Source: Tetraselmis striata (Eukaryota > Chlorophyta > Chlorodendrophyceae > Chlorodendrales > Chlorodendraceae). Taken from it: a DNA stretch of 64,000 bases. Shown here in pieces: positions 650 to 62,306 of the stretch (position 1 is the stretch's first letter; every line of letters starts with the position of its first letter). The translations under genes and the position numbers were made by a program. A model generated the notes under the pieces. That model ran no database searches. It was not told the origin of the DNA and saw nothing but the letters and a program-made list of their open reading frames with translations. Where the stretch lies: contig VCJN01001359.1 in NCBI GenBank assembly GCA_006384855.1, forward strand, positions 1-64,000, given 5' to 3'.

Positions 650-1925
650 ATTCTGGCTTTGCCAAGAAGGTCGTGTAGGCTGTTTTACGGTAAAACCCTA
701 AAAAACCCCAAACCCGACGGAAGGCGCCCCACGTCGTCACGCGTGCTCACCTTTGCGACCACGCCCCCGACAACCACTGCATCCACGTCCTCGCCCGCGA
801 CCTGCGAGCGTCGCCACCACCCTTGCAATGGAGGTAGCCCTCGCCATGTTGGCAACTGTCGCCTCGAAGACGCGGCGCTCGTAATCGCGCATCAGGTTGC
901 CGAAAACTGCAAAGCCCAAATGCTTTGCTGCGCGCTGGAAATGCTGAGCCCGCAGTACGTCCAACACCCCCGGGTCACCATATGCACACGCTTGATCTCG
1001 TTAAGCCTCCGACGTCGATGGCATGGTCGAAGGCCTCGGCGTTATTCCGAGCACGCGCGAGGTAAGAGGATAAATCTTAATTAGCAGCGGGAACGCAGGA
1101 GAGCAGCTCATCGAGAGCCACAAAGAGAGCGGCTGTGTGGGCCCCAAAACACGTCATCCAAATGGGCCTGCAAACGCCGGTCCTGGATCCTGGGCCGGCA
1201 ATGCTCCTACTCCCTTTGGAGAGTAGGAGATGCTAGTAGTGTATTTTAGTGGAATGCTCCTACTCCCAGGAGGAGCAAACTCCTCCTGGGCCGGCAAACG
1301 CCGGTCATCTTGCTTGAGGTAGTCGGTCTTCATGTCGGTACGCAAAGGGAAAAGCCCGTGCATTCGGCTAACCGGTCGAACGTTCTCGCAGCCAAGCTCG
1401 GCTCGTTGTAGTAGCTCTAGCACCGCGAGGTAGTCGTCCTCGTCATTCGCGGATATCTTGCTCCGACACGGCCGCTCGATATGGGTTGGCTCTAGCAAGT
1501 CGGGGCGCATTGTGGCTCCTCCGCTGCATGTCGGATGTCCCGCGACGCGCTGCCCGGGTCCATAGCCATGCGCCCCGTCTCCATCGACGCCACGTTCACG
1601 AGCCGCCAATTGGGCCAACGACGATGTGAGCTCGAGCGGCAATGTAGACTGGGCATGTACGCATGCTTGCAACGATTCGAGCGTCGGCCCGGCGACGGGG
1701 TCCTCTCCATCGGGCATGACGACGCACGGACGTACGGATGAAACGTATACACACTACTACGGATGGTGAGCCGGGTGTGCTCTCGAAACAACCTATGACC
1801 TTGTCCGCAACATAATACATATGGGACAGTTATAATCGATGTGCGTAACACATCGAAACTGGAAGACGGCATGCTCAGTTGTTTGCGGCTGCTTTTTGTC
1901 TACTCGTGCTGCCCAATATCTAAAT
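650..1925 (-). mobile_element. Internally deleted tyrosine-recombinase element with broken gag
   Basis: The stretch is a degenerate relative of the element at 54725-58206. Positions 650-705 match the start of that element's terminal repeat (GCTTTGCCAAGAAGGTCG). From about 715 the sequence jumps straight to the 3' end of its gag, so the recombinase part is missing. The minus strand of 737-967 matches the gag C-terminus, including an RDYERRVFEATVA motif and an Arg/Gly tail; 1154-1717 matches the N-terminus (MPDGEDPVAGPTLESLQ). Positions 1850-1915 match the other terminal repeat. Stops, frame changes and a 124-bp insertion break the gene. It is a dead, non-autonomous copy. Confidence 0.8.
1164..1306. 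mobile_element. Small foldback insertion in the gag remnant
   Basis: A 19-bp sequence, GGGCC(T/G)GCAAACGCCGGTC, occurs at 1164-1182 and 1288-1306, but only once (slightly diverged, near 57196-57214) in the intact relative. The 105 bp between holds two hairpins: CTCCTACTC/GAGTAGGAG at 1204-1229, and CCCAGGAGGAG/CTCCTCCTGGG at 1265-1290. This looks like a tiny foldback element with a target duplication, or a slippage duplication that captured a hairpin. Confidence 0.5.
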
Positions 1926-3248: not shown

Positions 3249-3421
3249 TGTCTCCCGACGAGGTGCTGCCTGCTTATATTATGCCAGGAGCACATGTGGC
3301 AAAGGCATACCACCCTATCACACCATCACGTCGACGGGCACAGGAGCAATCTCCGCCAGGCCTGAACACTTCCACGGGCCCAATTTCATTCTCTTGTCAT
3401 CCAGCTGTAAGCATGTTGAAG

Positions 3422-5597
3422 ATGAACGCCCCCCCCTGGCGTTTGCCGTCTCCTTCCTGCGCCGCTCTACTAGTTCTGGTGTCCTTGGCCATCTCGGCGG
3501 GCGTTTTCGTTTCTGCCGACGAGAAGCTAGAGTTGCTGGGCGCTGGTGCGTCTTTCCCAGAAGCCTTTTACCAGGACGCAATCTTCGCGTATCAGTTTGT
3601 CGAGCCAACCGTGACCCTCTCTTATCTGCCTACTGGGTCTTCCAAAGGAAAATGTCGGGTCAAGGTATCCCCCCCCCCCCCCCCCCCCCACCCGCCCCCG
3701 TCGGGGGCGTTCCCCTCGTTTCGAACTCGGGTGCAGAAAATCGCCTTCTACTACCGTCCATCTGCGTTAAGCGTGACCATATCATCCCCAACCCTTTTTT
3801 TCTGCGGCATGAGACGAATCCGCAGGGGTTTCAATTGACATTCTCGTCTGCTTTTGGCAATGGTCATGAAATGGGTTATTGCGCCAGGTTATTACGTGCT
3901 CGTTTTCTACACCGCATGCGCACCGTCCGGTCCGCACATATGCCGCGTCACCGACGACCGATTGCTGTTGCACACTCGCACTCGCACATTTGCATGGACC
4001 CTGGATATTGTTGCGTTGGTCGCTGCCCGCCGGCCCGCGGGTGAAGCCGCCCGACTGAGAGTGGCTGCTTCTATGTCTTCAGGACTTCGACGCAACTTGT
4101 AGCTCCAGTGACGACCTAGGCAGCCAGTACATCGACTTCGCAGGCTCCGACTCTCTGCTAAAAGCGGCGGAGTACCAGGCCTACCCCGACCTCCAGATGC
4201 TTCCCACGGTGCGTGACTGCTTGCAAAAACGGCGAGCTAGATCGGGCCTGCCACTGCTGAATACCTACGCTTGGGCACCTCCTGCTGCAGTGTGTATATT
4301 GGTGTTGGCAGGGACGGACGAATCAGCGGAAGTGCTTGTCTCTGCCTACATACGTGTGTCGGCGGTACATTATGCTAGGTTTTACTAAGGGTATTATCAT
4401 CCCCCTCCGAGTCCAGAGGTCCTGTAGTCGTCCGCCGAGAACGTCAGGTTACTAATTTCGACACGAGCTAGCTGCAAAAGGCTATAGTCAGGAAACCACC
4501 CGTACCTGTAGTAACACCCTGATGCACTGTTTATTTCACTCCTATGGTCCTGCCATGTCATAGAATACAGGTACTGGGACGTCGATAAGCCGGTGCCATG
4601 CTGATAAGCCGCAAAATATATAGCAGGTCATAGTCGTCGTCGCCCGCCTAGTTTGCAGACTATACGGCGGGGACATTACCAGTATCTGTAGCAGTACCTG
4701 CTGTGAATGAGCTCGTACCTGTACCCGTACACGCCTGTATTCATACTCGGATAGTACAGCAGGTGATAGTCGCTACTCGTCGTCGTCCGCCTATTTTGCA
4801 TACCAAACGGCGGGTACCTGTACCTGTACCAGTACCTCCTGTACCTGAACTGGTTTGGATTTCAAAAGCGCAAGCAACAAAACTAGTACATGTACCTGTA
4901 CTGTTACATGCCTTTATTCGTACTTTTCATTACTAATAATAACATTGTCCCTAACTACCACCAGGAACATCGTGATGTCCGCCGTCTGACTCCTGGGGAC
5001 CAAAAAATCCGCCGGGCATTTTCTTTGTACAATACTGAATTTCTTTGGTGCCGCGCGCGCATCCCATGTTCTAGGAAGTACTACCGCGTGTACATTATTT
5101 ACATGAGCTAAACCGCGTGTACATTCAATCGGATTACTCGTGATTGTGTACCCTCGTTTACTGCACAGTGGACGATGAGACGTGCTAATTGTCGTAGCGA
5201 CCAATGAATATCATCATACTACTGATGCTGGTGCCCGCGCTGCGTCGCGACTACTCGTAGTCGCTACAGGGCAAATAAAACCCGACTGCCTACGGGGACT
5301 TGTTACGGGCTAGTCGTCGTCATTCCTCACATCGTCATTTTTCAGATACATACAGGCAAGTAAATACAGGCACTACTCGTACACTACGGAACTGTGCTGC
5401 TGCAATATATTCATCACATATCGTTGCATATATCCATCGCATATATTCGAATATTCGTTGTGTTTGAAACATCCTCGTATACCGTATTAATATATAAATG
5501 ATATTATTATGAATTCTACAGTTTTATACTGTTTTAAATACATACGGCTAACAATCCCTTTACACATATCCATACTAATTCGTACGTACACATCATT

Positions 5598-5628
<31 letters not shown>

Positions 5629-8600
5629 CGATCCTTACCTATTCCCGCAGTACTCCGAGCCTGTAGTGCGGGCCGCCAAACACGCTTTAGGGCTTTATGG
5701 TCGCTACCGGTACCCGGAAATGCCGGAAAGGGGGCCAGACTTCGTCGGAAATGCCTACTTGCTCCGCGCGCGGAATTTGTCGCGGTTTTTTTTTCCCGCC
5801 CCCGGGACAGGACTGGCACCAGTGAAACCCTTGCAGCGTCTCTACGACGGCCGTTTAGGCAGCAATCCAGTTACGGAAAGCCCTGGGTAGGCGACGCTCC
5901 GTTATAGTCATAAAGCAAATTGCCGAAGCATTTCGCAAGACTAATTGGAGGCCAGTGACGGAATTTCCAACACTGTTGGATCACCGTCTAAAACACTGCC
6001 ATCAAAATACCCGGCACTGACCACGAAAGGTCCGCCCTACCCGTTTGGGCGTCGGCCCATTCGAGTAATGCGAGTTGGGGCAAGCCCCAACCCGCGGAGC
6101 AAAGCATTTCGGGAGTGCGATACATGTGCAACAAAAAAGGCAATGTGAGGGAGGGCCCGACGCCATAGCTGGAAAAATTTCCCATTCCCAGTAAAATCCA
6201 GGGCGCCGTGAAGGGAGGGGGGGACCCCGCCCAAAATAAAGACAGCTAAGTCGTCAGGCGTTGACGCACTAACCTGACTACTAGTAAAATCCCTGAACTC
6301 CGGAACTAACAACCCAAAATTATGACGGTGATACCCCCACCGCGGGCACTCCACCAACATACGTTCGATAGTCTCAGATTCACCTCCGCCACATGCAGGG
6401 CAGTGTTCAAGGAACCGCTCAGGCATGGCATGAATCCGGGCCAATCGGCGGGCAGTGGGAAATACTCGGGTGCGTAATTGTATCGTAATGTGCAACCCGG
6501 CCACAACCCCCGCGGGGACACCCACACCGTACTGTGGCAACGGGTTTGACGCATAGGACGCCTGGACATATATACCCCGGGTGTTATTGCGTGCTAACGA
6601 TACCGACGATTCGTAACGCGCCCACACCGATGCCTTTACTAGTTTAGCGGCATCGCGCGCGGCTAGTGACCTCCACTCAAGTGGAAGGTGCGCCCCCTCA
6701 GCTAGCCCTACGTTCGCCCTAGCTAGTCGATCTAACCACCGCACAGTCCCCGACGTCCATGTGTTAGGGCGCGCCCGACTTGGCTGATCTACTAAATGGG
6801 TTATACATGTATTCAAGTCGGATGCTTTAAGGAACGCCCGAGCCCGTGCCGTAGCCTCTATGGGCGCAATATCCAATTCCCGCATCATCGGTGCAGTGGC
6901 TACCCCAGGGGAGTTTTTACCTACCCCAATGAGGCAACGCAAGCACTGATTGAGTACAGTTTGTAATTTATTTGCGCCGCTAGTTCTATCCATGCCCCAT
7001 ACTTCACACCCATAAGTTAAAACCGGCAGTACACAGGTTTTAAAAACCGACACACGCACATTAATAGGGATTATGTCCCGTCCACCGACTAATACCGAAT
7101 CGAGCGCCTCAATAGCGCGTTTACCCTTCTTAACCCGGTCGTCTACTATGTGTTGCATACCTAAATCCGACTTAATGACCGTACCCAAGTACCGATATTC
7201 ATTTACAACCGGTACCCGTTCCCCCCCAAGCTGCCATCGGGCAGCTTGTTCGCGTAACGCGGTCTCGTCGGAATATCGGCCTAATGCCATCACCCCACAC
7301 TTAAGTACCCCAAACCCCATAAAATGATCCTCCGCCCACTGCAAGAAGTGGGCGAACATGGCATGCAGGTTATCGAACGAGCATGTGATACCAACAGCGT
7401 CGTCCGCGTATAACTGACCTGGCACCCTTAGTGGTTGCCTTGCCGCTAATGTGTCAGTGCACCCTGGTACATCACATCCTAGATGTTCTACCCCATCGAA
7501 TATATCGTTAATAAATATGTTAAATAGGATGGGGGAAGCGGGGCATCCCTGTCGGAGGCCACGCTCTATGGGTATGGGGTCTGATAGTGTTCCCGGGGCC
7601 ACCCCTGTCTTGACCCGTACCATACTATCCCTGTATAAAGTTTTAATGAAGGTAAGCATATGACCCGTAACTCCTATGGCTTGTAGTTTTAGGAATAAAA
7701 GCTCATGAGGTACGGTGTCATGTGCCTTCCTAAAGTCAATAAAACCCGCGTACGTGGGTAGACCTGCCGCTTGCCGCGGTCTTACCAGGGTCTTACGAGG
7801 CTATTCCCCAGCGGGCCGATGTTTCGACATTCCCGCGAATTTATCCCATTTCACGGCATTCCGCGCCACAAGTATCTCTTAATCGCGCCACACTGGTCGG
7901 TCAACAACCATCGCCCCCAGCCACGCGGCGTCCCGTCCCGCACGCACTCCTGCGTCCCACAGCGCCCATCGAGGGACCAGATCGACACACGATGAGTGCA
8001 CTTTTGCATATGGGATCCGTCGGGGAGCTTCCGATAGGCCATGTGGCGTGCTCCACGGCAGGTCGCGGTTGTGGCTGCGGATCGCGGGCGGGGCGGGCAA
8101 CTCGGATTTCCGCTTACTGCGTCTTGCCGCGTGGCCGTCGACGCATCTCCGCACCTCCGCTGACCTGGCGTCCCTTGGGAGTTTGATCTTGTCAGGGAGG
8201 TCTGCGACATCTCGGACTCGCGGAGGCGGGATGGCTGAGGCGCCGCGGTCACGCGGGCGGTGGTGCGCTCTTGCGCGGTGGCACTGATCGGTGGCCACGG
8301 ATATCATACAATATAAATATATAGCAGGTGGTGGCCTAGGGCGTTGCTATATCGTATGATATCCGTGAACGATTCTCCCTGATTTCCACAGGGGGTGCCA
8401 TGATGCAAGTCGGCGACCGGCCGTCGGCATAGGTAAACTCGTACGGGTATCGGGGTACCGGGTAAGTCGTAATATTGGCAGTCGTAAGCCGTGATCCGGG
8501 ATTAAGTCACCGAGTAATCAGCTCGATCAGCCGCATCGCTGGTCAATGTCGCGAAGAATCTGCAGGAAGAATAACACTTATAACAATCTGCTGGATTCGA

Positions 8601-9103
8601 GCATGTAACTAAGATATCCCCCCCTCCCCACCCGCGCCCCCCCGGGCCCCCGTCGTAGTGATCATCGACGAATGCCATTTACGCATTCAATATATTATCG
8701 ATAATGGATGTATATGATTGGTACGTAGGAATCCTTACACGATATACATATGCTCGATAAAAAACGTCTATATTTACTCGTAAGGATTACATACCGCGTT
8801 TGGTTAATTACTAAGGATTACAAACGCCGTGATGTCGTTCATGTAATATCAGGTGTAGACATGATTCAAAGGGTGTAATATAGGTGTCGCACTCTCTCCA
8901 TTACCGCGTCTAGACGATCTATGTGACGGAAGCTCAGGAATCCTCAAAGCAAATCAGGGAATAGAATACCTAAATATGATGGAATGGTGATACAATAACG
9001 CTAGAAGGGTCAAAATGCGTTTTGCTTTTTTGCCATATATGCGCTAGTACTGATGATGATGCGTTATTAAGCTTGTACTAGCAGAACTATATATCAAATG
9101 CGT

Positions 9104-9154
<51 letters not shown>

Positions 9155-12100
9155 CAGTTGTTTTGTATTCCATAAGCTTACTCTGCTTATCCATGTTTAA
9201 TTCTCAGAGTTGCAGAGTCTGCCTGTAGCGAGCCCCTGCGGCCGCATATGGAGAAAGCTTTTATTAGCAGGTGCGCCGCGCAGCAGCGGAATGACCTTTT
9301 TCTCAGGTCTCCTCTGCTCTTGTCGCAGGTTGCGGGATCCATAGTCCCCGTCGTGAATATCCCCATCCTGGATTCCGAGGCCGGCGAGATTCTGGTCGTC
9401 GACCGCAGCGTCCTGTCGCGTATTTTCATGGGATTGATCATCCGCTGGAACGACCCCGATATACTCGCCCAGCAGTCGCCCAGTGTAGCTGACAAGCTTG
9501 CTGCCGCCGAGAATTCAATCAAGTTGGTCGTCCGAGGCGACGGGTCGGGCAGTACAGAGGTGTTCACCAAGGCGCTGAATCTGTGAGTTCACGCGCCCCG
9601 GGTTTACCTGGCGTGCTTGCTGTGTGCCGCTCCTTCCAGTGACCATAGTCTACACTACTTTCATGGCTGTTAATGAATACACATTGATTGTTCACACCCA
9701 TGTTCAAAATGATGGAGCACTTGGTAGTTGCCACATCGGCACATGAATTGTTGCTTTTGTGGCACCTTGGCATCATAAGGCTGAGGCATCTCATTGGACG
9801 TTGTGCACATGTTGCCGCCCACCACTACCTGCAGGTTCAGCGACGGCGATTTTGCCGCTATTGTCGGAGAGCCGAGTTCTAATCGCGCTGTCTGGGATGG
9901 CGCCATCAACCGCGGCGCTAATGTGTCGTTTCACGACGGTACATCTGCGCTGTCCGGGGCCGTGCTACTCACCGAGTGGACGATTGGCTACGCGGCGGGC
10001 GATGCAGCTGAGGCCGCGGGACTTCAAGTCGCAGCGTTTCGCCAGAACAGCAAGCAGACCATACCTGTCACATACGGTAGCAGCCCGTGCCCGACAATTT
10101 CCCACGTCATCAGCAGTGACAGTTAGAGTATAACTGAAAAAAGCAAGTTGCAATAGATAGCCTCCTTTCAGGTCATGCAACGCATTGCTAGTGGGAATTG
10201 TGATTGCACATATTCAAATACGTGTATGGCTTTGTTGATCTGCAGGAACCGAATCCGTCAGCTTTGCAATGCTTGAGAAAGGCCTTCAGTTTGGAAACAA
10301 TGGGGACGATTCAGAGCGCATGACTGCCGACCTGATGGACGCCCGTGGCGGTCTAGCCTGGCCCATCTCCACCTACACCTACGTGATATTCCGAAACGGC
10401 ATCGGTGGGGATCGCCTGCGACCGGGCGCCACCTGCGAGCACGTCATGGAGTCTCTGAAGTTCTGGTACTGGCTGTATACATCGGACACTGCCTCCCAGC
10501 TGGCGGCCCGGAAGTCTTTCGTCGGCCTTCCACAGCTGGTGCGTCACTAATCTACATCTTTGAAAGGCACCTGCATATATTTCTAAATACGTGAGCAGAA
10601 CTTGGGTGATTCTCAAAATTGTATGCTCAGTAGTAGAAGGCGTCGTTCACGTGCTTCCATATTATAGCCCCTGTTGTGAGCTAAGTGTGAACATCTCCGA
10701 CCCCTGTTTTTGGCGCTCTGAGTATTGCCGGTGGCACCAAACCTCCATGTTCACTTCTTCTCATCTGTTTGTGCTACAGGTCAGGGCGCCAATCATTAGC
10801 GCATTGCGGAAGTTCAAGTGTGGCGGAGTGGAGCTTTTTCAGAACTACGGGGACAGAGATGAGCAAGCGGTGACCGTGAAGGGCACCGTGGATGGGCTCG
10901 CCGACTATGTGGCCGACCTATTTGCTTTGTCCTTCCAGGTTTTGACCTTGCCTGGCGCCCATATATACAGTGGGGGCACTGCACCCAAGTTGCATCAACG
11001 AGACTTGCCACTGCATTCCTCAGTATTTACTGACATTGTTATCCTTGGTAAACCTCACAGGCGGTCTTTGAGTGGGCAAGGATCACCTACGCCAAAGTCA
11101 CCGCAGGACATTTGATCGACATTTCTGATCCGTTGGTGGACTCAGAGGGCTTCCAGGTGGTTGTTGGAAACGAGATCTACGGCAATGCATGGATGAAGCG
11201 AGAACTGGCCAAGGTGCCGCAGATCATTCGCTGCCCGATGTTTGAAGTTGGGCATGTAGATGTTCATCTGTCCCAGGGGCTAAGCCTGACGAGCATGTGC
11301 CCCCTGTTCCTTGTCCTGTACAGGTCCTCACCGCCAGAGGCACCCCCACTGACACCAGTTGGAGTGACCTCCACGGCGCGGGCGAGAGCAGCACCATGGC
11401 GCTTCCATGGTTTGCGTTTTCGATCGAGTTTTACGCCAACATCCAGGGCAAAGTGGGCGGCCTGCCGCTGGTGGTGAGCAAGCAGACCCTTGGCCTCATC
11501 CTTGACGGGGGGATCACCGCCTGGAACGACCCGCGGCTGGCGGCAGACAACACCTGGCTGGCCGAACTTCAAGCCTCGGAGGCCGACCTGGCCATCAAGG
11601 TGCGGCTGACCCCGCATACTGCCCCGTGCTGTGCTCGGTAACGGTTGTGCTCCGTCGACTCGCAGTGCACCTCCTGATTAAGAGCTGTGCTTCACTGACT
11701 CCCCTCATCCCCCCCCCAATCACGCCCTGGTTGACACGTGGTGGCCGCAGCTGTTTGCATCTCATGACAGCGACTCCGTCTATACTATCCTGAGCTCGGA
11801 ACTGTCCTCTGGGTTCAAGGCGTACAGTTCCTCCCAGAAATTCCACTCATACAATCAAGTGCGTCGCCTGCCAGTCCCTGTGCCCTGCTTCTAGCCGCCC
11901 AGCCATGTGAAGATGTATGTGCGTGTTCGCGATATGGCTGCACCCTGCTGACCGCGAGTTCCACACCCCTCTGACAGGCCGCCATTGTCGCCAGCGGAGT
12001 CCCTGGCGCATTCCTGTACACCACCTCCATGTCCTCCACACCCAGCTCCCTCACCCCGCTGGCGCTCAAGTGGCCCCGCGCACCCTCCGCCGTGGAGCCC

Positions 12101-13731
12101 TCCCGTGAGTCGGGCCTGGCGTGCGTCACCCACCCGGACGCATTTGATCCCGCGACACAGGCGCTGATTGTCGACGAGGCGGTCCCAGGATGCTACCCCC
12201 TCCTGCAGCCTGTCAACATGATATTCCATCACAGCTACGCCGACGACGAGGAGATGTGCCACGGCAACTCGGGCGAGGACGAGACCGACTACGGCACCGG
12301 CCTGACCGCTACTAGGTTTGTGAAGTGGCTTTTTGAGAGCGGGCAGGCGACGGAGGGCGCGCTGTCCAACAACGGCGCCATCCCTCTGACGCACGCCACT
12401 GGCAACGAGGCCCATATTGCGGCCGTGCTCCACATCACCGAAACCATCAACTGCGGCCATGCCCCCGACCTCGAGGTCTTTGACTGGACCATCATCATCA
12501 TCGCCTGCAGCGTCGGCGGCGCCGCGGCGCTGTGTGTGCTTGGGCTGGCGTACTACACCATCTCCAGCCGCAATGAGATGAAGTCCAACCCGCTGAAGGG
12601 CCTCAATGTGCTCGCGGAGATGCGCGATGTGATGGAGGACGTGCGGCCCATCGAGGAAGGGGCCGTGGCGACCTACATTCCGGAGCTGGGCCTGGTCCCG
12701 CCAGACCTCTTTGCGATCGCAATTGTCACAACCAAGGGCAAAGTTTACAAGCTGGGCGACTTTGAGAGCACCTTCTCCATCCAGTCCATGGTAAAGCCCT
12801 TCTCCTACGCGCATGCCCTGGACCAGAACGGTGTGGAGTTCATGAAGACAAAGGTGGGCGTGGAGCCCGCTGGCGGCGCGTTTGACGCGATCGAGATGAA
12901 CCCCGATGGGCTCCCCTTCAACCCGTACATCAACGCCGGCGCCATCGCGGTCACCATGCAGCTGGAGGGCGACACCGACGAGCGTTACAACGCCTTCCGG
13001 AAGTTCCTCAGCTCCTATGGCAGCCGCGAATTGAAGTGTGACGACAGCATCTACAAGTCCGAGTCCTCCACAGCGGCACGGAACCGCGAGATTGCGGAGG
13101 TCCTGCAGCGGAATGGTGTCTGCGCCAGCGACTTTGACAAGGTATGGTGCACCCCAGGGAGGGGGGGGCACTCCCATGAGTTATGTACCTCTTCCCGTGA
13201 CCGCTCGGCAAGGAGCCCGCAGGCACTGAGCCAGGCCCGCACTGTGACAGGAGCACGGTCTGGAGGCGTACTTCAAGCAGTGCTCCACGCTTGTGAACAC
13301 CGTGGACCTGGCCATGATGGCCGCAACCTGTGCCAACGGCGGCACCAACCCCATCACCAAGCAGCAGGTGGTGCCGTCCGAGATCAACGAGGAGGTGATG
13401 AGCGTGATGATGACCTGCGGCATGTGAGTACGCCGCCGCCTCATGAGCACCGCGCAGTTTTACGCCCCACATAACTCTGCGCTGTTTCCAGCATTCCGCC
13501 GGTGGCACACTTACAGCCTCGGTCACGTGGCTATGCGTGTGGAGTGCGTCTGGTGGCTGTCATCAAGTCTTGCATCAAGTTCCATTGTCACGAAACCTGA
13601 GCTGCTGTGACTGCTATACACCCAGCTTTTTACAAGCAATTCAAACCATTATCTGGCAATACTATTTTCTAATAATAGATACTTATCCATGAATAACTGC
13701 CCCCTGTATTGAGAGAGAGAGAGAGAGAGAG

Positions 13732-13763
<32 letters not shown>

Positions 13764-14434
13764 AGGCAGAGGTAGAGCTCTTATGGAGCTGCACGCGGTT
13801 AAAGGCACTAGCACTGCATCCCAAGAGTGGGTAGAAGGCTTAGACGTCCGCCTGTTGCATACACATTTGCTTTATTATACACAACGTTGACAACTTCACC
13901 ATCAGTGATTTTGTGTGTACATAATGGTTAGCAGGACTTCCCGTCCAATCTGCTGATTCTTGTGCTGCCTGCGGGCGCAGGTACAACGGCGCGGGCAACT
14001 GGATGGTGGACGTCGGCATCCCCGCCAAATCGGGTGTCTCTGGCGGCATCTTTGGCGTCGTCCCCGGCGTGTGCGGCGTGGCCGTGTTCAGCCCCCGTCT
14101 CAACGAGGCCTTCAACTCGGTGCGCGGCATCTATGCGTTCCGCGAGCTGTCGCAGCGCATGGGGTTGCATGTGCTGCAGAAGAGCAAGGGCGGTGTGAGC
14201 GTGCTCGCGCCCTTCGTTGGCCGCAAGTCCCGCATGCGGGGCAGTCAAGGCAGCACAATCGCGAAGTCGTTCCTCGCCCCTGCACCAAAGAAGGCCCGCG
14301 TCGCGGACAACATGGTTACCCCCGGCGACATGCAGGCCAAAAGCCACGGCAGGGAGCAGGCATCGCCGCGCGTGATGGCGAGCCGGCCCGCCGAGGTCAC
14401 GCGGGTGCAGGCCTGGCAAGTGGAGGAAGTCTGA
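3422..14434 (+). CDS. Copy A: secreted tandem PstS-like domains - TM - glutaminase fusion (12 exons)
   Basis: Exons: 3422-3664, 4083-4208, 9329-9582, 9835-10076, 10246-10538, 10780-10938, 11061-11246, 11324-11599, 11751-11858, 11978-13141, 13251-13423, 13981-14434. All junctions are GT-AG and in phase, giving 1225 residues. The ATG was chosen because it is the one shared by all three copies; a signal peptide covers about residues 5-28. PstS-like domain 1 (about 30-440) has GAGASFP, TGSSKGK and the anion loop RGDGSGST (192-199). Domain 2 (about 441-750) keeps the GGLPLVVSKQTLGLILDG core and WNDP but lacks that loop. One TM helix lies at about 800-823. The glutaminase (about 857-1141) has Tyr863, Ser899-x-x-Lys902, NAGAI (Asn948), Glu991, Asn998, Tyr1024 and Tyr1076, matching the active site of human GLS. 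It should hydrolyse glutamine to glutamate and ammonia in the cytosol. The tail of about 85 residues is basic. The fusion is unusual; coupling to phosphate is inference. Confidence 0.92.
5806..5889 (+). repeat. Dispersed repeat copy 1 (intron 2 of gene A)
   Basis: The core is GCAGCAATCCAGTTACGGAA followed by AGCCCTGGGTA, preceded by CTTGCAGCGTCTCTACGACGG. Related copies lie at 20090-20181 (-), 49280-49365 (-) and 52655-52763 (+). The family is unnamed and has no coding capacity that I recognise. Confidence 0.6.
6037..7808 (-). mobile_element. 5'-truncated LINE (non-LTR) reverse transcriptase in intron 2 of gene A
   Basis: A minus-strand frame open from about 7807 to 6037 encodes the C-terminal two thirds of a non-LTR retrotransposon RT (540 residues from the first Met at 7659; the frame reads further upstream). 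Motif A is FIDFRKAHDTV, near 7720-7755. Then follow GLRQGCPASPILFNIFI and the catalytic LYADDAV. A zinc-ribbon-like CPACGG...CP segment typical of LINE C-termini lies near 6350-6420. The endonuclease and RT N-terminus are missing, the usual 5' truncation from incomplete reverse transcription. The frame is otherwise clean, so the insertion may be young. It lies antisense to the host gene, so it would be spliced out with intron 2. I saw no clear poly(A) tail or target duplication. Confidence 0.88.
8296..8367. repeat. 20-bp near-perfect inverted repeat
   Basis: CACGGATATCATACAATATA at 8296-8315 is mirrored by its reverse complement at 8348-8367 with one mismatch, around a 32-nt loop. It lies in intron 2 of gene A. 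It could be a cruciform-forming site or a tiny foldback element. Confidence 0.7.
9106..9152 (+). repeat. (TG)n microsatellite
   Basis: About 23 uninterrupted TG units lie near the 3' end of intron 2 of gene A, some 175 bp before exon 3. Gene B has only a short GTGTGCGTG at the matching place, so the array expanded after duplication. Confidence 0.95.
13711..13763 (+). repeat. (GA)n plus poly-G tract in intron 11 of gene A
   Basis: About 12 GA units are followed by AAAGA and then 24 G. Gene B has the same composite at 29549-29612; gene C keeps only the GA part (TC on the + strand, 44261-44276). Confidence 0.9.
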
Positions 14435-20487: not shown

Positions 20488-23400
20488 ATGAACGCCCGCC
20501 CCCCCCGGCGTTTGCCGCCTCTTTCCCGCGCTGCTCTACTAGTTCTGGTGTTCTTGGCCATCTCGGCGGGCATTTTCGTTTCTGCCAACGAGAAGCTGGA
20601 GTTGCTGGGCGCTGGTGCGTCCTTCCCAGCTGCCTTTTACCAGGACGCGATCTTTGCTTACCAGTTTGTCGAGCCAACCGTGACCCTCTCTTATCTGCCT
20701 ACTGGCTCTTCCAAAGGAAAGTGTCGCGTCAAGGTGCGCCCACCCCCCCCCCCCCCACCCCCCCCCCCGGGTGTTACCCGTGCTTCGAACTGCGGTGCAT
20801 GAAGTCATTTTTTACTAGGACCCATCTTTGCAAGTGGACGTGACCATATAACGCCAGGCTGCAATAGGGCGTACCCCGCATGCGCGCCTATTGACCCTCA
20901 TATTTTCTTCCCCGTCGCCGACGACGACCGTTTGCTGCTGTTGCACACTCCCAGTCGCACAGCTGCGTGGACCCTGGCTACTGTTGCGTCGGTCGCTGTT
21001 CGCTGGCCCGCAGGCGAAGCCGCCCAACTGAGTGCGGCTGCTTCTGTGTCTTCAGGACTTCGACGCAACGTGTAGCTCCAGTGACGACCTAGGCAGCGAG
21101 TACATTGATTTCGCAGGCTCCGACTCCCTGCTTACAGCAGCGGAGTATCAGGCGTACCCAGACCTCCAGATGCTTCCCACGGTGCGTGGCTACCTACTGG
21201 AACGTCGAAATAGATTGGGCTTGCCAGTGCTGAACACATACTCTTGGTCACCTCAGACTCATGGGCAGGCGCTTGCGGTGGGTTGACGGCTACACGGCCC
21301 GACGGTGATTGTCGGTGCAGTCGTCATATACGGGTACCACTGGCGTAAGGATTAGCGACTACCTGTAGTTCGAAAAACGTACGCCCCCCGTTCCCTGTAT
21401 TACTGGTGTGAATTACAAAAAGCCAGTAATCATAACGATAAAAACAGTACTAAAAGATAAAGATTAACACAGGCCGAGGGGAGTGGCCGGATTGCTGTGT
21501 TGATCTTTTAGGACTGCTTTTTTAGCAGCAGGTGGATTTGTAACGGCATTTTTTTTGGTAATTCACACCGCGATACAGGTACCCTGTACCCGCACCTAGT
21601 CGCAATATGCTAATCTTAGTACTTACACTCGTAGTACCTCGCCGCCTCGGGCCAGCTCCAAAATGCTGCATGCCATTAAATGCACCCCGCTAAGGTATTT
21701 TCCGTGCTACGGGTACTCGTATTCCGTGCCTGGCCTGTAGTAATCCTTAGAAATCCTTGCCCTCGTCTATAACTACAAGCCGAAGTAATCCAACACATCC
21801 CGGTGCGATTTCAAGCGACGCGACCGCGACGAAAAAACCATCACAGCATATCAGAGTGTAATCCGTATTAGTATGAGTATGAGACGACCCCTACGCCAGA
21901 CCGCCAAATAATGTCACAAACAATGTCACAAACACATCTGTAATTTGTGCAGCCTTAAAACCACCGTGTATACTACACATGTAAGTTTTCAAAAATACAA
22001 TGTATTATTTGATAACCATCTCAATAAAACAACGCTACATAAAACGAGTATCGTGTAGTAAACAACCCGGGTGTTTACTACTCCCTGTCCTCCTGCTCGA
22101 CCTTGGTTTCAGGCTTACGTCTCTCTTTTGCTGGCAACAACCCGGGTGTACTGCTGTTACCTCGGCGCAGTTCAGGGTTTCTATCTGATGTTGTTTGCTA
22201 CGATTTGGGGTGGTTCGGGGTACTTTGTGTCGGAGATAAGCTGTTCATATCGAGGTATTTATATTTTACGGCGGTCGTGCTTGCTTGACAACCGGAATAT
22301 TCCTCGGATAACCCGTCGCATATATTCCCATATTCCCCGCATAATATACCAACCAGCAGCACCAACTCATTGATGTATCGACCTCAAAGGATACGCGGGA
22401 AATTTATTCTGTTAAAGGATGATGGTGGCGGTGGCGGTGGCGGTGGTGATGGCGCAGTAGCGGTGGCGGTGGCAGTAACGACCACCACCTTCTAGCCGCC
22501 AGGTTCTAGCGATCAGGCGGTGTCGGGACCTCAGCGGGCCGCGCGCTGGGTTAACGGTACCAACTCAGCATAGCGGGCCCAAGGGGTCCGGACTCTCTTG
22601 TTGTGGCATAATAGCCTCGTACAGAAAGACGCTCTTCGCACGACCCATAGCCCCTGTATTCCATCAACTCGCACGAGGATTCGAGAGGCGACGGGCATAT
22701 CGCTGTATTATTCCTTTATCCCACATTCCATCGAGTTTCAGCCTAAACGGCATACGTCCGGGCGTTATTCCCCCCTATCAGCACCTGTTGATAAGGCTAT
22801 CTCACTTATAAATAAGATACCTGGAGATACTTGGAGATTCGTTTAATACGTCCGATTATAATACTAGTCGCTACTGCTCGTCCGCCGGCACAGATTTTAC
22901 GGCACTAACTGTACCTGTACCTGTACCTGTAGAGGACCTTTCTGATATTGTCCTTTTTTTCGGTGATTTCCTGATATCGCCATCTGCTGCTAGCTCTTGT
23001 AGTGTGGTACCTGTACCTATACGTAGGGTCAAAGCGATATTTCATTCGGGGGGTCAACATTGCGTCTTGGTAATCATGCAGCCAGGTTATTACGACGAAA
23101 AAAAACCTGCATTTCGCAGTACAGTACGTTATTTAGTAGTTTTGAATAGTGTTGAATAGTCTTGAATATCGAGTTTATCGCTTATTTCCCGGTAGATGGC
23201 TTTCTTGTCTCCCTTGTCCGCTCGGTTGAGCGGTCGTCTCGTACGCGAGGGGTCCCTGGATCTATTCCTGGCCGATGTATGTCGGCAGTGCCAGTGCCCT
23301 TCGGGGTTCGAATGAGGCAATAGGTCTACGGGCTATGCCAGACCTACGACTACAGTTGGTGCAAGAGGTCAAGTGCTGGGGCGGCTTCGGCTGATGTCCC

Positions 23401-26400
23401 GGCGCGAACTTTACTTTTACTTTACTTTAATGTCTTTCTTTCCCTGGCAACCTTTCAGTTGCTTTTAGTTCTGTTTGTATGCGCATGTGCTATAGCACTG
23501 ATACATCACGCAGAAAAACAGAGTTGTCCGCACAGCAGTGTCTACTCGCTACCGTACGTAGTTCAGTCGCTGCGGAGATTTGACAGCCGTACGTAATCGG
23601 GTACGAGTAATTTTGATAATTTTGAACGGCACCTTTAGTATTATTATAGGGACCTATCATTCTTACTATTTGTGCCACCGGCAGCGCGCACGGTACGGGC
23701 AAAGAACACTACGGGCAGTTCCCCATCAGCAGTAGCGCACTGGGTTATCTGCTACTGCCATCTCGACGGCGCTAACTAATAATTACATGGCATTGTCCAT
23801 CCGGATCCCGGGAGTGTATATCAAGAGAACAAGATTATAATAGAAAATGATGAGATAGTTTGGATTATTGTAACACAGACTAGACAGATACATGTGTCGT
23901 ACAGCAAATTAATATCGGAAATCACAAAGCACATGCTTTGAGTTTGTATTGCCCATGTATTCAGAAAACGTATATGTGCATTGTTTGAAAGTGGATACCG
24001 ATACATGCATGCGGACCGATGCACAGCGAGAAGCTGACATTAATCATACTAATGGCAATGATTAGGAGTTACATTAAGAAATGTAGACAGATGCACGGCG
24101 ATTCCCCGTTTGGGACATTTCATCCTTGTATGGTATGAAACAGCACGTAAAAGTTGCGTATGCATATGCTGGAAAGGATTACATATAGCTCAATCGTTAT
24201 ACATATATTATATCCTAAGGATATACAAACGGTGTTAAGTAATCAATTGCAGCAGGCACAGATGATATCATTAATCATTAATCATAATTTTACAATGGAA
24301 ACTTGGCAATAACGAGAAGGGAATAAAATAATAGTATAGTAGCATAATAAAATAAGAATATGAAAAACGTTAGAAGGGTCGCAAACCACAGCCAGGCACC
24401 GCCGTTATAACGTTTTTGTGACCTATACATGCATGCGCCAGTGTTGTAGTGGGTATATAATGATGATGCAACATACTTTTACCTGTAGATATATATATTT
24501 GATCTTATTATTTATGAGTGTCTGCATGCGTATTATAAGCCGGTGTGTGCTCATTCAACTTCATATTGCGCATCAACTGATTTTCATCTCCCTCTTTGCC
24601 CCACAACATGGTTTTTGGGTGAATCTTCGTGGTACAATCATTAATCAATACGAATACCCAATAACCCAAATGCTGACAATGGAATATTGTCAGGTCACGC
24701 GCTTGTTATGGCGGAAGGACGCTTGCAAACAAACAAAATATGGGGAGGGGGTAGGCTAAACTTGGAAAAAATAAGTTTGACAATTGGCTGGCCCAATAAC
24801 GGATTTCACATATAGCGACTATGTCTAACTAGTAGTTATTATCATCATCCTGGTGGCTGGTGCAGGGATCTGCGGCAGCATGCGCATGGTAACACATTCT
24901 CCTGCTTGTTTGTGAAAATATGCCTGTCAACTGTGTGCGTGTTTTTTCTAGTTGTTTTGTACTCTATAAGCTTACTCTTCTTATCCATATTTAATTCCGA
25001 TAGCTGCAGAGTTGGTCGCTATCGACCTTAGCGGCCGCATATGGAGAAGGCTTTTCTTAGCAGGTGCGCCGCGCAGCAGCGGAATGACCTTTTTCTCAGG
25101 TCTCCTCTGCTCTTGTCGCAGGTTGCGGGATCCATAGTCCCCGTCGTGAATATCCCCATCCTGGATTCCGAGGCCGGCGAGATTCTGGTCGTCGACCGCA
25201 GCGTCCTGTCGCGTATTTTCATGGGATTGATCATCCGCTGGAACGACCCCGAAATACTCGCCCAGCAGTCGCCCAGTGTTGCTGACAAGCTTGCTGCCGC
25301 CGAGAATTCAATCAAGTTGGTCGTCCGAGGCGACGGGTCGGGCAGTACAGAGGTGTTCACCAAGGCGCTGAATCTGTGAGTTCACGCGCCCCGGGTTTAC
25401 CTGGCGTGCTTGCTGTGACCATAGTCTACACTACTTTCATGGCTGTTAATGAATACACATTGATTGTTCACAACCATGTTCAAAATGATGGAGCACTTGG
25501 TAGTTGCCACATCGGCACATGAATTGTTGCTTTTGTGGCACCTTGGAATCATAAGGCTGAGGCATCTCATTGGACGTTGTGCACATGTTGCCGCCCACCA
25601 CTACCTGCAGGTTCAGCGACGGCGAGTTTGCCGCTATTGTCGGAGAGCCGAGTTCTAATCGCGCTGTCTGGGATGGCGCCATCGACCGCGGCGCTGCTGT
25701 GTCGTTTCACGACGGTACATCTGCGCTGTCTGCGGCCGTGCTTCTCACCGAGTGGGCAATTGGCTACGCGGCGGGCGATGCAGCTGAGGCCGCGGGACTT
25801 CAAGTCGCAGCGTTTCGCCAGAACAGCAAGCAGACCGTACCTGTCACATACGGTAGCAGCCTGTACGGGACAATTGCCCAACTCATCAGCAGTGACAGTC
25901 AAAAAATAACTGAAACATATCTGAAACAGTCATAAAATAACTGAATACATTATCAACAGAGCACCTCCACTGCCACATCATGCAACACATTGCTAGTGGG
26001 AATTGTGATTGCACATATTCAAAGACGTGTATGGCTTTGTTGATCTGCAGGAACCGAATCCGTCAGCTTTGCAATGCTTGAGAAAGGCCTTCAGTTTGGA
26101 AACAATGGGGACGATTCAGAGCGCATGACTGCCGACCTGATGGATGCCCGCGGCGGTCTAGCCTGGCCCATCTCCACCTACACCTACGTGATATTCCGAA
26201 ACGGCATCGGTGGGGATCGCTTGCGACCGGGCGCCACCTGCGAGCACATCAAGGAGTCTCTGAAGTTCTGGTACTGGCTGTATACATCGGACACTGCCTC
26301 CCAGCTGGCGGCTCGGAAGTCTTTCGCCGGCCTTCCACAGCTGGTGCGTCACTAACATATTTGAAAGGCACCTGCATAGCTTTATAAATACCCAACGATT

Positions 26401-29400
26401 ACAAGACGGCTTTCTCAAAATTGTATTCTCAGTCGGAAAAGTCGTCATTCACTAAAACGTGCTTCCATATATGCCGCACGGATACATACGTGTATCAAAG
26501 TGTGAGCAAAGTGTGAACATCTCTGACCACTGTTTTTTTGCGCTTTGAGCATTGCCCGTGGCATTGAACCTCCATGTTCACTTCTTCTTCTGGTCTGTTT
26601 GTGCTCCAGGTCAGGGCGCCAATCATAAGCGCATTGCGGAAGTTCAAGTGTGGCGGAGTGGAGCTTCTTCAGAACTACGGACACAGTGACGAGCAAGCGG
26701 TGACCGTGAAGGGCACTGTGGATGGGCTCGCCGACTATGTGGCCGACCTTTATGCTTTGTCCTTCCAGGTTTTGACCCTTTCTGGCTTTATATACAGTGG
26801 GGGCACTGCACTAAAGGCGCGTCAGCGAGACAGTGAGACGCCACTGCATTCCTCAGTATTTACTGACATTGTTATCCTTGGTAAACCTCACAGGCGGTCT
26901 TTGAGTGGGCAAGGATCACCTACGCCAAAGTCACCGCAGGACATTTGATCGACATTTCTGATCCGTTGGTGGACTCAGAGGGCTTCCAGGTGGTTGTTGG
27001 AAACGAGATCTACGGCAATGCATGGATGAAGCGAGAACTGGCCAAGGTGCCGCAGATCATTCGCTGCCCGATGTTTGAAGTTGGGCATGTAGATGTTCAT
27101 CTGTCCCAGGGGCTAAGCCTGACGAGCATGCGCCCCCCGTTCCTTGTCCTGCACAGGTCCTCACCGCCAGAGGCAGCCCCACCGACACCAGTTGGAGTGA
27201 CCTCCACGCCGCGGGCGAGAGCAGCACCATGGCGCTTCCATGGTTCGCGTTTTCGATCGAGTTTTACGCCAACATCCAGGGGAACGTGGGTGGGCTGCCG
27301 CTGGTGGTGAGCAAGCAGACCCTTGGCCTCATCCTTGACGGGGGGATCACCGTCTGGAACGACCCGCGGCTGGCGGCAGACAACACCTGGCTGGCCGAAC
27401 TCCTAGCCTCGGAGGCCGACCTGGCCATCAAGGTGCGGCTGACCCCGCATACTGCCCCGTGGTGTACTCGGTAACGGTCGTGCTTCGTCGACTCGCAGTG
27501 CACCTCGTGATAGAGAGCTGTGCTTCACTGACTCCCCTCATCTCCTCCCCCCAATCACGCCCTGGTTGACACGTGGTGGCCGCAGCTGTTTGCATCTCAT
27601 GACAGCGACTCCGTCTATACTATCCTGAGCTCGGAACTGTCCTCTGGGTTCAAGGCGTACAGCTCCTCCCAGAAATTCCACTCATACAATCAAGTGCGTC
27701 GCCTGCCAGTCCCTGTGCCCTGCCTCTCCTCATGCTCGCACATCTGCGGTCCTACCTAGCCGCCCAGCCATGTGAAGATGTATGTGCGTGTTCGCGATAT
27801 GGCTGCACCCTGCTGACCGCGAGTTCCACACCCCTCTGACAGGCCGCCATTGTCGCCAGCGGAGTCCCTGGCGCATTCCTGTACACCACCTCCATGTCCT
27901 CCACGCCCAGCTCCCTCACCCCGCTGGCGCTCAAGTGGCCCCGTGCACCCTCCGCCGTGGAGTCCTCCCGTGAGTCGGGCCTGGCCTGCGTCACCCACCC
28001 GGACGCATTTGATCCCGCGACACAGGCGCTGATTGTCGACGAGGCGATCCCAGGATGCTATCCCCTCCTGCAGCCTGTCAATATGATCTTCCATCACAGC
28101 TACGCCGACGACGAGGGGATGTGCCACAGCAACTCGGGCGAGGACGAGACCGACTACGGCACCGGCCTGACCGCTACTAGGTTTGTGAAGTGGCTCTTTG
28201 AGAGCGGGCAGGCGACGGAGGGCGCGCTGTCCAACAACGACGCCATCCCTCTCACGCACGCCACTGGCAATGAGGCCCATATTGCGGCCGTGCTCCACAT
28301 CACCGACACCATCAACTGCGGCCATGCCCCCGACCTCGAGGTCTTTGACTGGACCATCATCATCATCGCCTGCAGCGTCGGCGGCGCCGTGGCGCTGTGT
28401 GTGCTTGGGCTGGCGTACTACACCATCTCCAGCCGCAATGAGATGAAGTCCAACCCGCTGAAGGGTCTCAATGTGCTCGCGGAGATGCGCGATGTGATGG
28501 AGGACGTGCGGCCCATCGAGGAAGGGGCAGTGGCCACCTACATCCCGGAGCTGGGTCTCGTCCCGCCGGACCTCTTTGCGATCGCAATTGTGACAACCAA
28601 GGGCAAGGTTTACAAGCTGGGCGACTTTGAGAGTACCTTCTCCATCCAGTCTATGGTAAAGCCCTTCTCCTACGCGTATGCCCTGGACCAGAATGGTGTG
28701 GAGTTCATGAAGACGAAGGTGGGCGTGGAGCCCGCTGGCGGCGCGTTTGACGCGATCGAGATGAACCCCGATGGGCTTCCCTTCAACCCGTACATCAACG
28801 CCGGCGCCATCGCGGTCACCATGCAGCTGGAGGGCGACACCGACGAGCGCTACAACGCCTTCCGGAAGTTCCTCAGCTCCTATGGCAGCCGCGAATTGAA
28901 GTGTGACGACAGCATCTACAAGTCGGAGTCCTCCACGGCGGCACGGAACCGCGAGATTGCGGAGGTCCTGCAGCGCAATGGTGTCTGCGCCAGCGACTTT
29001 GACAAGGTATGGTGCACCCCGGGGATCACTCCCATGACTTCCACCCCTCTGCCCTCCTGACCGCTTGGCAAGGCGCCCGCAGGCACTGAGCCAGGCCCGC
29101 ACTGTGACAGGAGCACGGTCTGGAGGCGTACTTCAAGCAGTGCTCCACGCTTGTGAACACGGTGGATCTGGCCATGATGGCCGCAACCTGTGCCAACGGC
29201 GGCACCAACCCCATCACCAAGCAGCAGGTGGTGCCGTGCGAGATCAACGAGGAGGTGATGAGCGTGATGATGACCTGCGGCATGTGAGTACGCCGCCGCC
29301 TCATGAGCACCGCCCAGTTTTTACCGCTCACATCACACTGCGCTGTTTCATGTGGCTGCACGTGTGGAGTGCGTCTGGTGGCTGTCATCAAGTCTCGCAA

Positions 29401-30294
29401 CAAGTTCCAACGATTTTCACGAAACCTGAGCTCTGCCGTGACTGATATACACCCAGCTTTTTACATTAAGCAATTCAAACCCTTATCTGGCAATATTATT
29501 TTGTAATTATGGATACTTAACAATCAATCAATGAATTCCAACTGTATTGAGAGAAGAGAGAGAGAGAGAGGGGTTGGGGCGGGGCGGGGGGGGGGGGGGG
29601 GGGGGGGGGGGGATTGAGGCATAGAGGCAGAGCTCTCATGGAGCTGCACTCGGTTAAAGGCACTAGCACTGCATCCCAAGAGCGGGCCAAGCCGTTCGCC
29701 TGTCGCATACACATTTGCTAAATTATACACAACGTTGACAACTTCACCATCAGTGATTTTGTGTGTACATAATGGTTAGCAGGACTTCCTGTCCAACCCG
29801 CTTATTCCTGCGCTGCCTGCGGGCGCAGGTACAACGGCGCGGGCAACTGGATGGTGGACGTCGGCATCCCCGCCAAGTCGGGCGTGTCTGGCGGCATCTT
29901 TGGCGTCGTCCCCGGCGTGTGCGGCGTGGCCGTGTTCAGCCCCCGCCTCAACGAGGCGTTCAACTCGGTGCGCGGCATCTATGCGTTCCGTGAGCTGTCC
30001 CAGCGCATGGGGCTGCACGTGCTGCAGAAGAGCAAGGGCGGTGTGAGCGTACTCGCGCCCTTCGTTGGCCGCAAGTCCCGCATGCACAACGGTCAAGGCA
30101 GCACCATCGCGAAGTCGTTCATCGCCCCTACGCCAAGGAAGGCCCGTGTTGCGGACAACATGGCAGCCCCTGGCGGCATGAAGGTCAATAGCCGCCATGG
30201 GGAGCAGACATCGCCGCGCGTGATGGCGATCCGACCCGCAGAAGTCAGGCGGGTGGAGGTCACGCGGGTGCAGGCCTGGCAAGAGGAGGTGTGA
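20488..30294 (+). CDS. Copy B: secreted tandem PstS-like domains - TM - glutaminase fusion (12 exons)
   Basis: Exons: 20488-20733, 21056-21181, 25122-25375, 25611-25852, 26051-26343, 26610-26768, 26894-27079, 27157-27432, 27586-27693, 27843-29006, 29111-29283, 29829-30294. Exon lengths equal those of copy A except exons 1 and 12, giving about 1230 residues with no frame break. Domain order and active-site residues are as in A: signal peptide, domain 1 with GAGASFPAAF and RGDGSGST, domain 2 without the loop, TM helix VFDWTIIIIACSVGG, SIQSMVKPF, NAGAI, TCGMY. Introns 3-11 are still alignable with A, so the duplication is recent or the copies are being homogenised. Intron 2 (3.9 kb) is unlike that of A and carries a MITE instead of a LINE. 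The tail after the glutaminase is four residues longer than in A. Confidence 0.92.
21403..21572. mobile_element. MITE-like foldback element in intron 2 of gene B
   Basis: The left end TACTGGTGTGAATTACAAAAA is mirrored at the right end (TTTTTTTTGGTAATTCACACC). Inner blocks also pair: CTAAAAGATAAAGATTAACACAG lies opposite CTGTGTTGATCTTTTAG, so most of the roughly 170 bp can fold into one long stem. There is no coding capacity. Single-ended matches to the terminus (TTGTAATTCACACCAG) lie near 58226 and 58311. Confidence 0.7.
22423..22477 (+). repeat. (GGTGGC)n short tandem repeat
   Basis: Variant GGTGGC/GGTGAT hexamers repeat within intron 2 of gene B. The rest of that intron (22480-25120) shows no recognised gene. 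Confidence 0.8.
29549..29612 (+). repeat. (GA)n plus poly-G tract in intron 11 of gene B
   Basis: It is the counterpart of 13711-13763 in gene A: a short GA array, a GGGTTGGGGCGGGG link, and a run of 27 G. Confidence 0.9.
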
Positions 30295-59146: not shown

Positions 59147-59912
59147 TGTTGCGCCGATATTTGGCAGTAGTACTATGTATAATACATACATGGCATAATG
59201 TATTAAGGAGCTGAGAGCTCCACCAAGAGCCAAGTTCCTAGAGAGCCATCAGCAGGCATGAGGCGAACATGCCCACTCTAGAATGACCTCAGATGGTCAT
59301 GCAACTCTGGGCCCCACCTCAGCCAGTAGTTAAGAGACATGAGCCGCCAGAATGGCGGCTCAACATGCTTTATATACTAGAATACATCAATGCCAAGGTG
59401 CACCAGCTAGCATCCCCAGCTGAGCCCATAGCCAGCAGGTGTAGCTGCTGATAGTACTAAGGGCTATGTTGAGCCCATAGAACTGTAACAGATTCTAAGT
59501 CACCCTCAGCTGCTGCTTGTTTGCAAGGCAACCTGCACCAACTCCATAAGGTTATGGCGTACTCAACGCCGGAGTTGCCTTGCTGACACTCCTCTGTGGG
59601 CTGCCTCTTCGGTTGCCCCTCTCGGTTTTCCGAGCGCTGGTGGCGCTCTCGTTTCCTGCACCGGTGTGCTGAGGAGGGGTGTATCGGTCACACCCCTAGG
59701 CATGCTTCTGTGCGGCTGCCGGTACCCCTTTGGGTGTGCGATTTTCGAGCCCTCGCTGACATCAGTGCTTTGGCGCTGGGGTGTTTCTGTCGGAGCAAGG
59801 TGCCCAAGTCTAAGAGAGAGGCGGGCGCAGTGGCACCATGCCTCATCTTGCGGGCATATACTAGTAAGAACCCCTTAGTCTGCGTAATTCGCTAACCTTC
59901 GCCACCTTCATC
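59147..59912 (+). promoter_or_regulatory. Probable 5' LTR and leader of the methyltransferase retrotransposon
   Basis: The region precedes gag. A TGTTGCGCC at 59147 could begin an LTR, and TTTATATACTA at about 59369 is a plausible TATA element. I could not fix the LTR end or the tRNA primer-binding site, since the second LTR lies beyond the window. Confidence 0.35.
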
Positions 59913-61940: not shown

Positions 61941-62306
61941 CCCCTGCCCAAAACGGCTGCTCAACCGGACAAGACCCATATGACTCGCCAGTCCCACACA
62001 AAACAGATGGAGAGCTCAGTTGCAGTTGCGGCTGTGGAAGCGTTTCAGAGCACACCTCAGGACTACGACTTCTATGGGTCTCACCTGCTCGCGAGACAGC
62101 CGAGGGGCGGTTCAATGCGCTCGGCATCCGCCATGAACATCCCGCGCCCGGAACGGTATCCACTGTCGACGCATCCCAGACGACTGCGCAGCACTCCAGG
62201 CCTAGGCAACCTGATGCATGTCAACGATACCTACACTACCCAGACATACAGTGATGGAGACATGCCTGACCTCCAATCTAACTCTGACACGTCAGATGAT
62301 TGCTGA
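61941..62306 (+). CDS. Gag-frame extension between gag and methyltransferase
   Basis: It is in the same frame as gag, from just after the TAG to TGA 62304-62306; an ATG at 61980 could also start it (108 codons). The end is acidic (DGDMPDLQSNSDTSDDC). The methyltransferase frame, one base ahead, continues with similar acidic sequence (EGDMPSLALDSTNDSS), which argues that a +1 shift at TGC TGA joins them. No domain is recognised. Confidence 0.55.
   Translation, partial: PLPKTAAQPDKTHMTRQSHTKQMESSVAVAAVEAFQSTPQDYDFYGSHLLARQPRGGSMRSASAMNIPRPERYPLSTHPRRLRSTPGLGNLMHVNDTYTTQTYSDGDMPDLQSNSDTSDDC

Follow-up and report, generated by a model that had tools for sequence, protein, structure and literature searches.

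What does a green alga do with a single gene that joins two domains resembling the bacterial phosphate-binding protein PstS, a membrane helix and a complete glutaminase? Such a gene, here called copy 1, lies at positions 3422-14434 (+) of a 64,000-nucleotide stretch from Tetraselmis striata (assembly GCA_006384855.1, contig VCJN01001359.1, positions 1 to 64,000 of the forward strand; the whole stretch is hereafter "the window"). The view that we favour, with moderate confidence, is that it encodes an enzyme-linked "receptor glutaminase", the ligand of which would likely be phosphate and the output glutamine hydrolysis; its ligand, regulation, direction of effect, topology and membrane are all predictions.

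Gene model and domain layout

Copy 1 comprises 12 exons, and all 11 of its introns have GT-AG boundaries, with consistent phases and no internal stops:

3422-3664 (+), exon 1: hydrophobic leader and beginning of the first periplasmic-binding-protein (PBP) domain, with phosphate-site residues S47, F48 and S76
4083-4208 (+), exon 2: PBP domain 1, with phosphate-site residue D107
9329-9582 (+), exon 3: PBP domain 1, with the VVRGDGSGS motif (R195, D197, S199, G200, S201)
9835-10076, 10246-10538 and 10780-10938 (+), exons 4-6: end of PBP domain 1 and beginning of domain 2
11061-11213, 11324-11599 and 11751-11858 (+), exons 7-9: PBP domain 2, with LFASHDSDS at 586 (phosphate motif gone)
11978-13141 (+), exon 10: end of PBP domain 2, transmembrane (TM) helix, NPLKGLNV juxtamembrane motif and first half of the glutaminase, in a single open frame
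13251-13423 and 13981-14434 (+), exons 11-12: second half of the glutaminase and C-terminal tail

A start three codons upstream, at 3413, would yield a protein of 1217 residues instead of the 1214 encoded from 3422. The shorter version is favoured because the models of two paralogues in the window (copies 2 and 3) and a transcript-derived MMETSP protein, P0001, start at the ATG equivalent to 3422, where an earlier note on this DNA had also set the start. Residue numbers of the copy 1 protein nevertheless follow the 1217-residue version (start 3413).

A Pfam scan of the protein found both domains that the earlier note had proposed to look for, namely PBP_like_2 at 39-343 (E = 1e-22, in two stretches when the lax limit of E<=1 is applied) and Glutaminase (PF04960) at 849-1131 (E = 6e-98, profile positions 1-285 of 286). 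In the same scan no permease domain, no 7tm_3 (E<=1) and no EF-hand or ankyrin match appeared. The leader (9-37) and the TM helix (786-816) are called from hydropathy windows above 1.5; weaker windows at 146-164 and 1084-1107 fall within the PBP and glutaminase domains, and there is one strong TM segment besides the leader. Hydropathy and domains together fit the layout of an enzyme-linked single-pass receptor (leader, ectodomain, one TM helix, complete enzyme), much as the earlier note had it, with a predicted topology that would place the ectodomain outside and the glutaminase in the cytosol.

The underlying observation, that these parts follow one another in one reading frame, is real: it is borne out by the 12-exon model, by exon 10 and by P0001 (1215 residues; 99% match over 100% of its length), which, judging by this identity, appears to come from the same species as the window. 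The fusion is independent of splice prediction, since a single exon, the tenth, runs in one frame from the last part of the ectodomain through the TM helix into the glutaminase, half of which it encodes. Both Pfam domains are also found in P0003, P0004 and P0005, and a partial protein, P0002, is 70% identical. The gene is not the only one of its kind, and the window contains two further complete ones:

20488-30294 (+), copy 2: complete 12-exon paralogue, 1219 residues
43575-54284 (-), copy 3: complete 12-exon paralogue, 1222 residues

Over the TM helix and glutaminase the pairwise nonsynonymous and synonymous divergences (dN/dS) between copies are 0.0038/0.1316, 0.0063/0.0926 and 0.0076/0.088, and PBP domain 1 has a higher dN (0.026 to 0.055, vs dS of 0.11 to 0.24); judged by these values, the three complete copies are under purifying selection. 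A public protein, jgi/Tetstr1 TSEL_015496 (P0035), whose label we read as Tetraselmis striata, is encoded in pieces at 57596-53433 (-). Its first 204 residues match the window at 100%, 74 consecutive residues are the same as in copy 3, and the model contains part of exon 1 plus exon 2 of that copy, i.e. it merges a transposon-like (tyrosine-recombinase-like) gene with copy 3 exons. An element related to the recombinase-like part of this model occurs at 982-1717 (-).

Predicted phosphate site and glutaminase active site

Domain 1 (PF12849, PstS-type PBP) has the PstS fold in a relative's structure model, with molybdate and tungstate binders among the lower fold matches. The mean predicted local distance difference test score of that model is 57.6, with the glutaminase part mostly below 50; the ectodomain alone was used, and the match list covers model residues 69-435, i.e. 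without domain 2. A PDB sequence search with the ectodomain profile likewise matched stretches of domain 1 only. In copies 1-3, the nine positions that we take to be phosphate contacts of domain 1, assigned by PstS numbering, are all retained or carry Ser for Thr; D56 and D137 are site positions with named mutants. Domain 2 is called a PBP from profile-profile comparison with domain 1, to which it is homologous (hhalign probability 99.8, E = 4.2e-30), and it lacks the R..SGT phosphate-contact motif, with LFASHDSDS where domain 1 has VVRGDGSGS. Two phosphate-binding domains had been proposed earlier; as far as these residues tell, the site is conserved in the first and only the first retains it.

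The PF04960 match is full-length and lies above the curated cut-off (327.9 bits vs 27). Residues that we take to be the key ones of the active site, chosen after human GLS, are all present (Y854, S891, K894, N940, E983, N990, Y1016, Y1068 and V1086, comprising the Ser-Lys pair and substrate residues), and these nine positions are invariant across four aligned rows, i.e. copy 1, P0003 and the ANF and MHYT types described below. The domain is complete, its catalytic residues are conserved, and hydrolysis of glutamine is predicted. The nearest PDB chains by sequence are the Micrococcus enzyme 3agd (E = 8e-65), YbaS 1u60 (2.1e-56) and kidney-type GLS (4.5e-55), and a Hoyosella glutaminase is 48% identical to the window enzyme over its best segment.

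Sensor-fused glutaminases and their relatives

A search of the genome found glutaminase matches beyond the window contig on C719, C29 (two genes) and C2415. The last is nearest to ankyrin-type proteins (tblastn); the other three lie behind different putative sensors:

L019 (G000:C719:20000-29900), about 6252-1031 (-): ANF-type glutaminase gene, hand-made model
L017 (G000:C29:38500-48000), 6004-9501 (+): MHYT-type glutaminase gene, gene finder model
L018 (G000:C29:69000-78900) (-): MHYT-type glutaminase gene, gene finder model

In the C719 model an ANF_receptor domain (E = 3.9e-28) is followed by a TM helix, by the motif NPLIGVNV, similar to NPLKGLNV in the window protein, and by a glutaminase (E = 2.3e-97). 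Within single frames, the one with the TM helix and glutaminase gives a Pfam glutaminase match of E = 4.2e-37, and ANF_receptor reaches at most E = 1.1e-4, under the cut-off, in one of four upstream frames scanned. On C29 both genes have MHYT repeats upstream of the glutaminase (E = 2.2e-21 and 2.1e-98, respectively, in the model scanned). Pfam reports MHYT matches in two frames upstream of the frame in which one of these glutaminases starts; a third MHYT-like motif shares that frame by eye, where Pfam reports none. A genome search with MHYT returned at least two matches, both directly upstream of the C29 glutaminase genes, and in the alignment of the copy 1, P0003, ANF and MHYT rows the MHYT type lacks the NPL juxtamembrane motif. 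With a low intron penalty the gene finder split genes too often; penalties of -7 and -9 were used for the C29 models, and at -11 it recovered 12/12 exons of copy 1 after training on the paralogous copies 2 and 3, which is not an independent test. Taken together, the models suggest that ANF- and MHYT-fused glutaminases seem to exist in this genome. A protein search with the ANF and MHYT rows gave no match among 7997 candidates and also missed ordinary glutaminases, so it is uninformative on distribution; transcripts of the ANF or MHYT genes did not turn up.

In a 28-row tree of glutaminase domains (midpoint-rooted, as was its predecessor, for drawing only, with long MHYT, YbaS and L063 rows), all seven sensor-fused rows, five of the PBP type plus the ANF and MHYT ones, cluster together (97/93); inside this cluster the PBP type forms its own subgroup (98/94) and the order of ANF and MHYT is not settled. 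Three sets of rows fall elsewhere: a 12-row cluster drawn from Actinomycetota and Acinetobacter (100/98), the ankyrin-type rows, five in number (100/100), and four further bacterial rows. Bacterial glutaminases (Micrococcus 3agd, Hoyosella) fall outside the sensor-fused group; in 10 of 80 bacterial loci the frame extends more than 60 residues upstream of the glutaminase match, counted from the first possible start codon. Animal-type GLS (EF-hand-like, ankyrin) shares the Pfam domain and forms a separate group. That type is ruled out by the grouping in both trees and by the absent EF-hand and ankyrin matches, and the earlier analogy to the phosphate-activated animal enzyme is not supported. Viral origin was also considered: 36 stretches matched a pattern in viral contigs and none encoded a relative (one scan, two short patterns).

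Related PBP ectodomains occur on class-C G-protein-coupled-receptor (GPCR; 7tm_3) and phosphodiesterase proteins. The search for them scored the 7996 candidates with most shared words and missed the query rows P0003-P0005, so that its list is a lower bound. P0016 carries a related double-PBP ectodomain fused to a 3'5'-cyclic nucleotide phosphodiesterase. The GPCR-type PBP_like_2 proteins (by record names from Heterosigma and Batrachochytrium) have, like the window protein, a double-PBP ectodomain, but carry 7tm_3, where the window protein instead has one TM helix and a glutaminase. PBP-7tm3 fusions have been published for Plasmodiophora, where they are called transporters (PMC4815078); their likeness to the window protein is by description. 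A 7tm_3 search of the genome gave no matches and recovered 0/14 controls, so it is uninformative on class-C GPCRs. Compared with bacterial PstS, domain 1 has the same fold and phosphate-site residues, but the PBP is duplicated and built into a membrane protein with no ABC permease. A flytrap, a single helix and a cytosolic enzyme is the order of enzyme-linked receptors, and receptor guanylyl cyclases have an ANF-receptor flytrap ectodomain, a single TM helix and a cytosolic cyclase. The window protein, with its predicted topology, shares this order, and the C719 model even has the ANF_receptor ectodomain; the window protein differs in its output, a glutaminase, and in its double PstS-type ectodomain.

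Two other PBP genes were seen in the genome. L015 (G000:C602:126351-136350) (-) has two PBP_like_2 matches over the cut-off and hydrophobic stretches by eye, with no glutaminase match, and is a different kind of eukaryotic PBP protein. At G000:C606:22227-23096 (L009, L022) a 354-residue open frame has a PstS-like match and may be on a bacterial contaminant contig or a transferred gene.

Further elements of the window lie outside the protein:

6037-7800 (-): retroelement reverse transcriptase open reading frame (RVT_1, E = 1.6e-17), in the 5.1 kb intron 2 of copy 1 (4209-9328)
59868-63642 (+): two long open reading frames, of which one matches a gag-type zinc finger weakly (below cut-off) and the other a C-5 DNA methylase; this may be a mobile element
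1-371: tandem repeat with 30-base spacing, at the contig start

Proposed receptor and its alternatives

We propose that copy 1 encodes a type-I enzyme-linked membrane receptor with a secreted double Venus-flytrap ectodomain. Its first PstS-like domain would bind a small anion, most likely inorganic phosphate, and the second, without the ligand motif, would serve as a structural or dimer linker. When the flytrap closes, the signal would pass down the single TM helix and along the conserved NPLxGxNV juxtamembrane segment, and the cytosolic serine-lysine glutaminase would change in activity or oligomeric state; local glutamine hydrolysis to glutamate and ammonia would thereby follow the phosphate status outside. 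This proposal draws on the finding of related glutaminases behind three sensors and of related ectodomains on three kinds of output, which suggests interchangeable modules.

Several points weigh against it. The proposal is built on sequence and models. P0001 tracks copy 2 up to alignment column ~172 and copy 1 from ~218, and exon 3 of copies 1 and 2 is 99.2% identical; recombination, or the merging of near-identical copies during assembly, would account for this, the simplest explanation being such a merger within exon 3. The earlier note had asked for proof of one transcript; P0001 spans both parts but is a mixture of copies 1 and 2, and so demonstrates a continuous reading frame for genes of this type without vouching for every letter of copy 1. 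The ANF-type model was joined by hand (10 exons, with 9 introns GT-AG and in phase; its first exon has no acceptor at the chosen start, leaving the N-terminus open, and the last glutaminase exons were joined without splice check), and the automatic gene finder (penalties -7 and -9) omitted much of its ANF part. The MHYT row is long, and an earlier 26-row tree with two bacterial rows, whose bootstrap had not settled, put ANF beside the PBP type (91/91) and left MHYT unplaced among bacterial rows; that the MHYT type shares one origin with the others is thus the less secure part of the argument. Potential N-glycosylation sites in the ectodomain are few (1, 0 and 3 sequons in copies 1-3). Two phosphate-site positions are altered in P0003-P0005 (F11 is L or A, D56 is E), and the loss goes further in P0021, P0028 and P0031, hence the ligand may vary among lineages.

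Could the protein instead be a membrane-tethered metabolic glutaminase, with an ectodomain that targets or anchors it or is a leftover, and whose ligand state does not control catalysis? Sequence cannot demonstrate regulation, and the ligand motif of domain 2 is gone; however, the domain 1 site is retained in three paralogues, tethering does not alone explain related glutaminases behind two other sensor modules in the genome, and related ectodomains occur on 7tm_3 and phosphodiesterase proteins, so we regard it as fairly unlikely. A receptor for another ligand (phosphonate, organic phosphate, arsenate or another oxyanion) seems unlikely to us, the variation of D56 and F11 among relatives and the molybdate/tungstate binders among the lower fold matches being the points in its favour.

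That the protein takes up or scavenges phosphate, its glutaminase contributing to nutrient supply, might be suggested by the transporter designation in the Plasmodiophora paper (PMC4815078), but one strong TM helix besides the leader offers no transport path of its own and Pfam finds no permease domain, which makes this very improbable. An artefact, i.e. separate PBP and glutaminase genes or a wrongly joined model, could be suspected because P0035 links copy 3 exons to a transposon-like gene and P0001 is a mixture of copies. Yet the stretch from the end of PBP domain 2 to halfway through the glutaminase, TM helix included, is one open frame within exon 10, every intron is GT-AG, and two distinct full-length MMETSP proteins, P0001 and P0003, carry both domains. 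Separate genes are ruled out by exon 10 and the transcript-derived proteins, and we assign an artefact of any sort a negligible chance.

The receptor reading may extend to a class: we give roughly even chances to an algal class of receptor glutaminases with one glutaminase type and swappable sensors (double PstS, ANF, MHYT), in which the PstS form would be a surface phosphate receptor tying nitrogen metabolism to outside phosphate. We found no sensor-fused glutaminase described in the openly licensed PubMed Central literature, judged from listings and abstract openings; the earlier claim that this order is undescribed stands to that extent, although the order is not unique to the window, as it recurs in P0003, P0004 and P0005. 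In that literature a glutaminase as receptor output did not turn up; PBP ectodomain-7TM fusions are already in print. To our knowledge no glutaminase is known as a receptor output, and we know of no surface phosphate receptor established in green algae. If the proposal is true, there would be a concrete candidate for a protein that senses outside phosphate directly, phosphorus and nitrogen metabolism in phytoplankton would be physically linked, and the enzyme-linked receptors would gain a new effector enzyme; the idea of swappable sensors could be tested straight away on the ANF and MHYT versions that this genome seems to encode.
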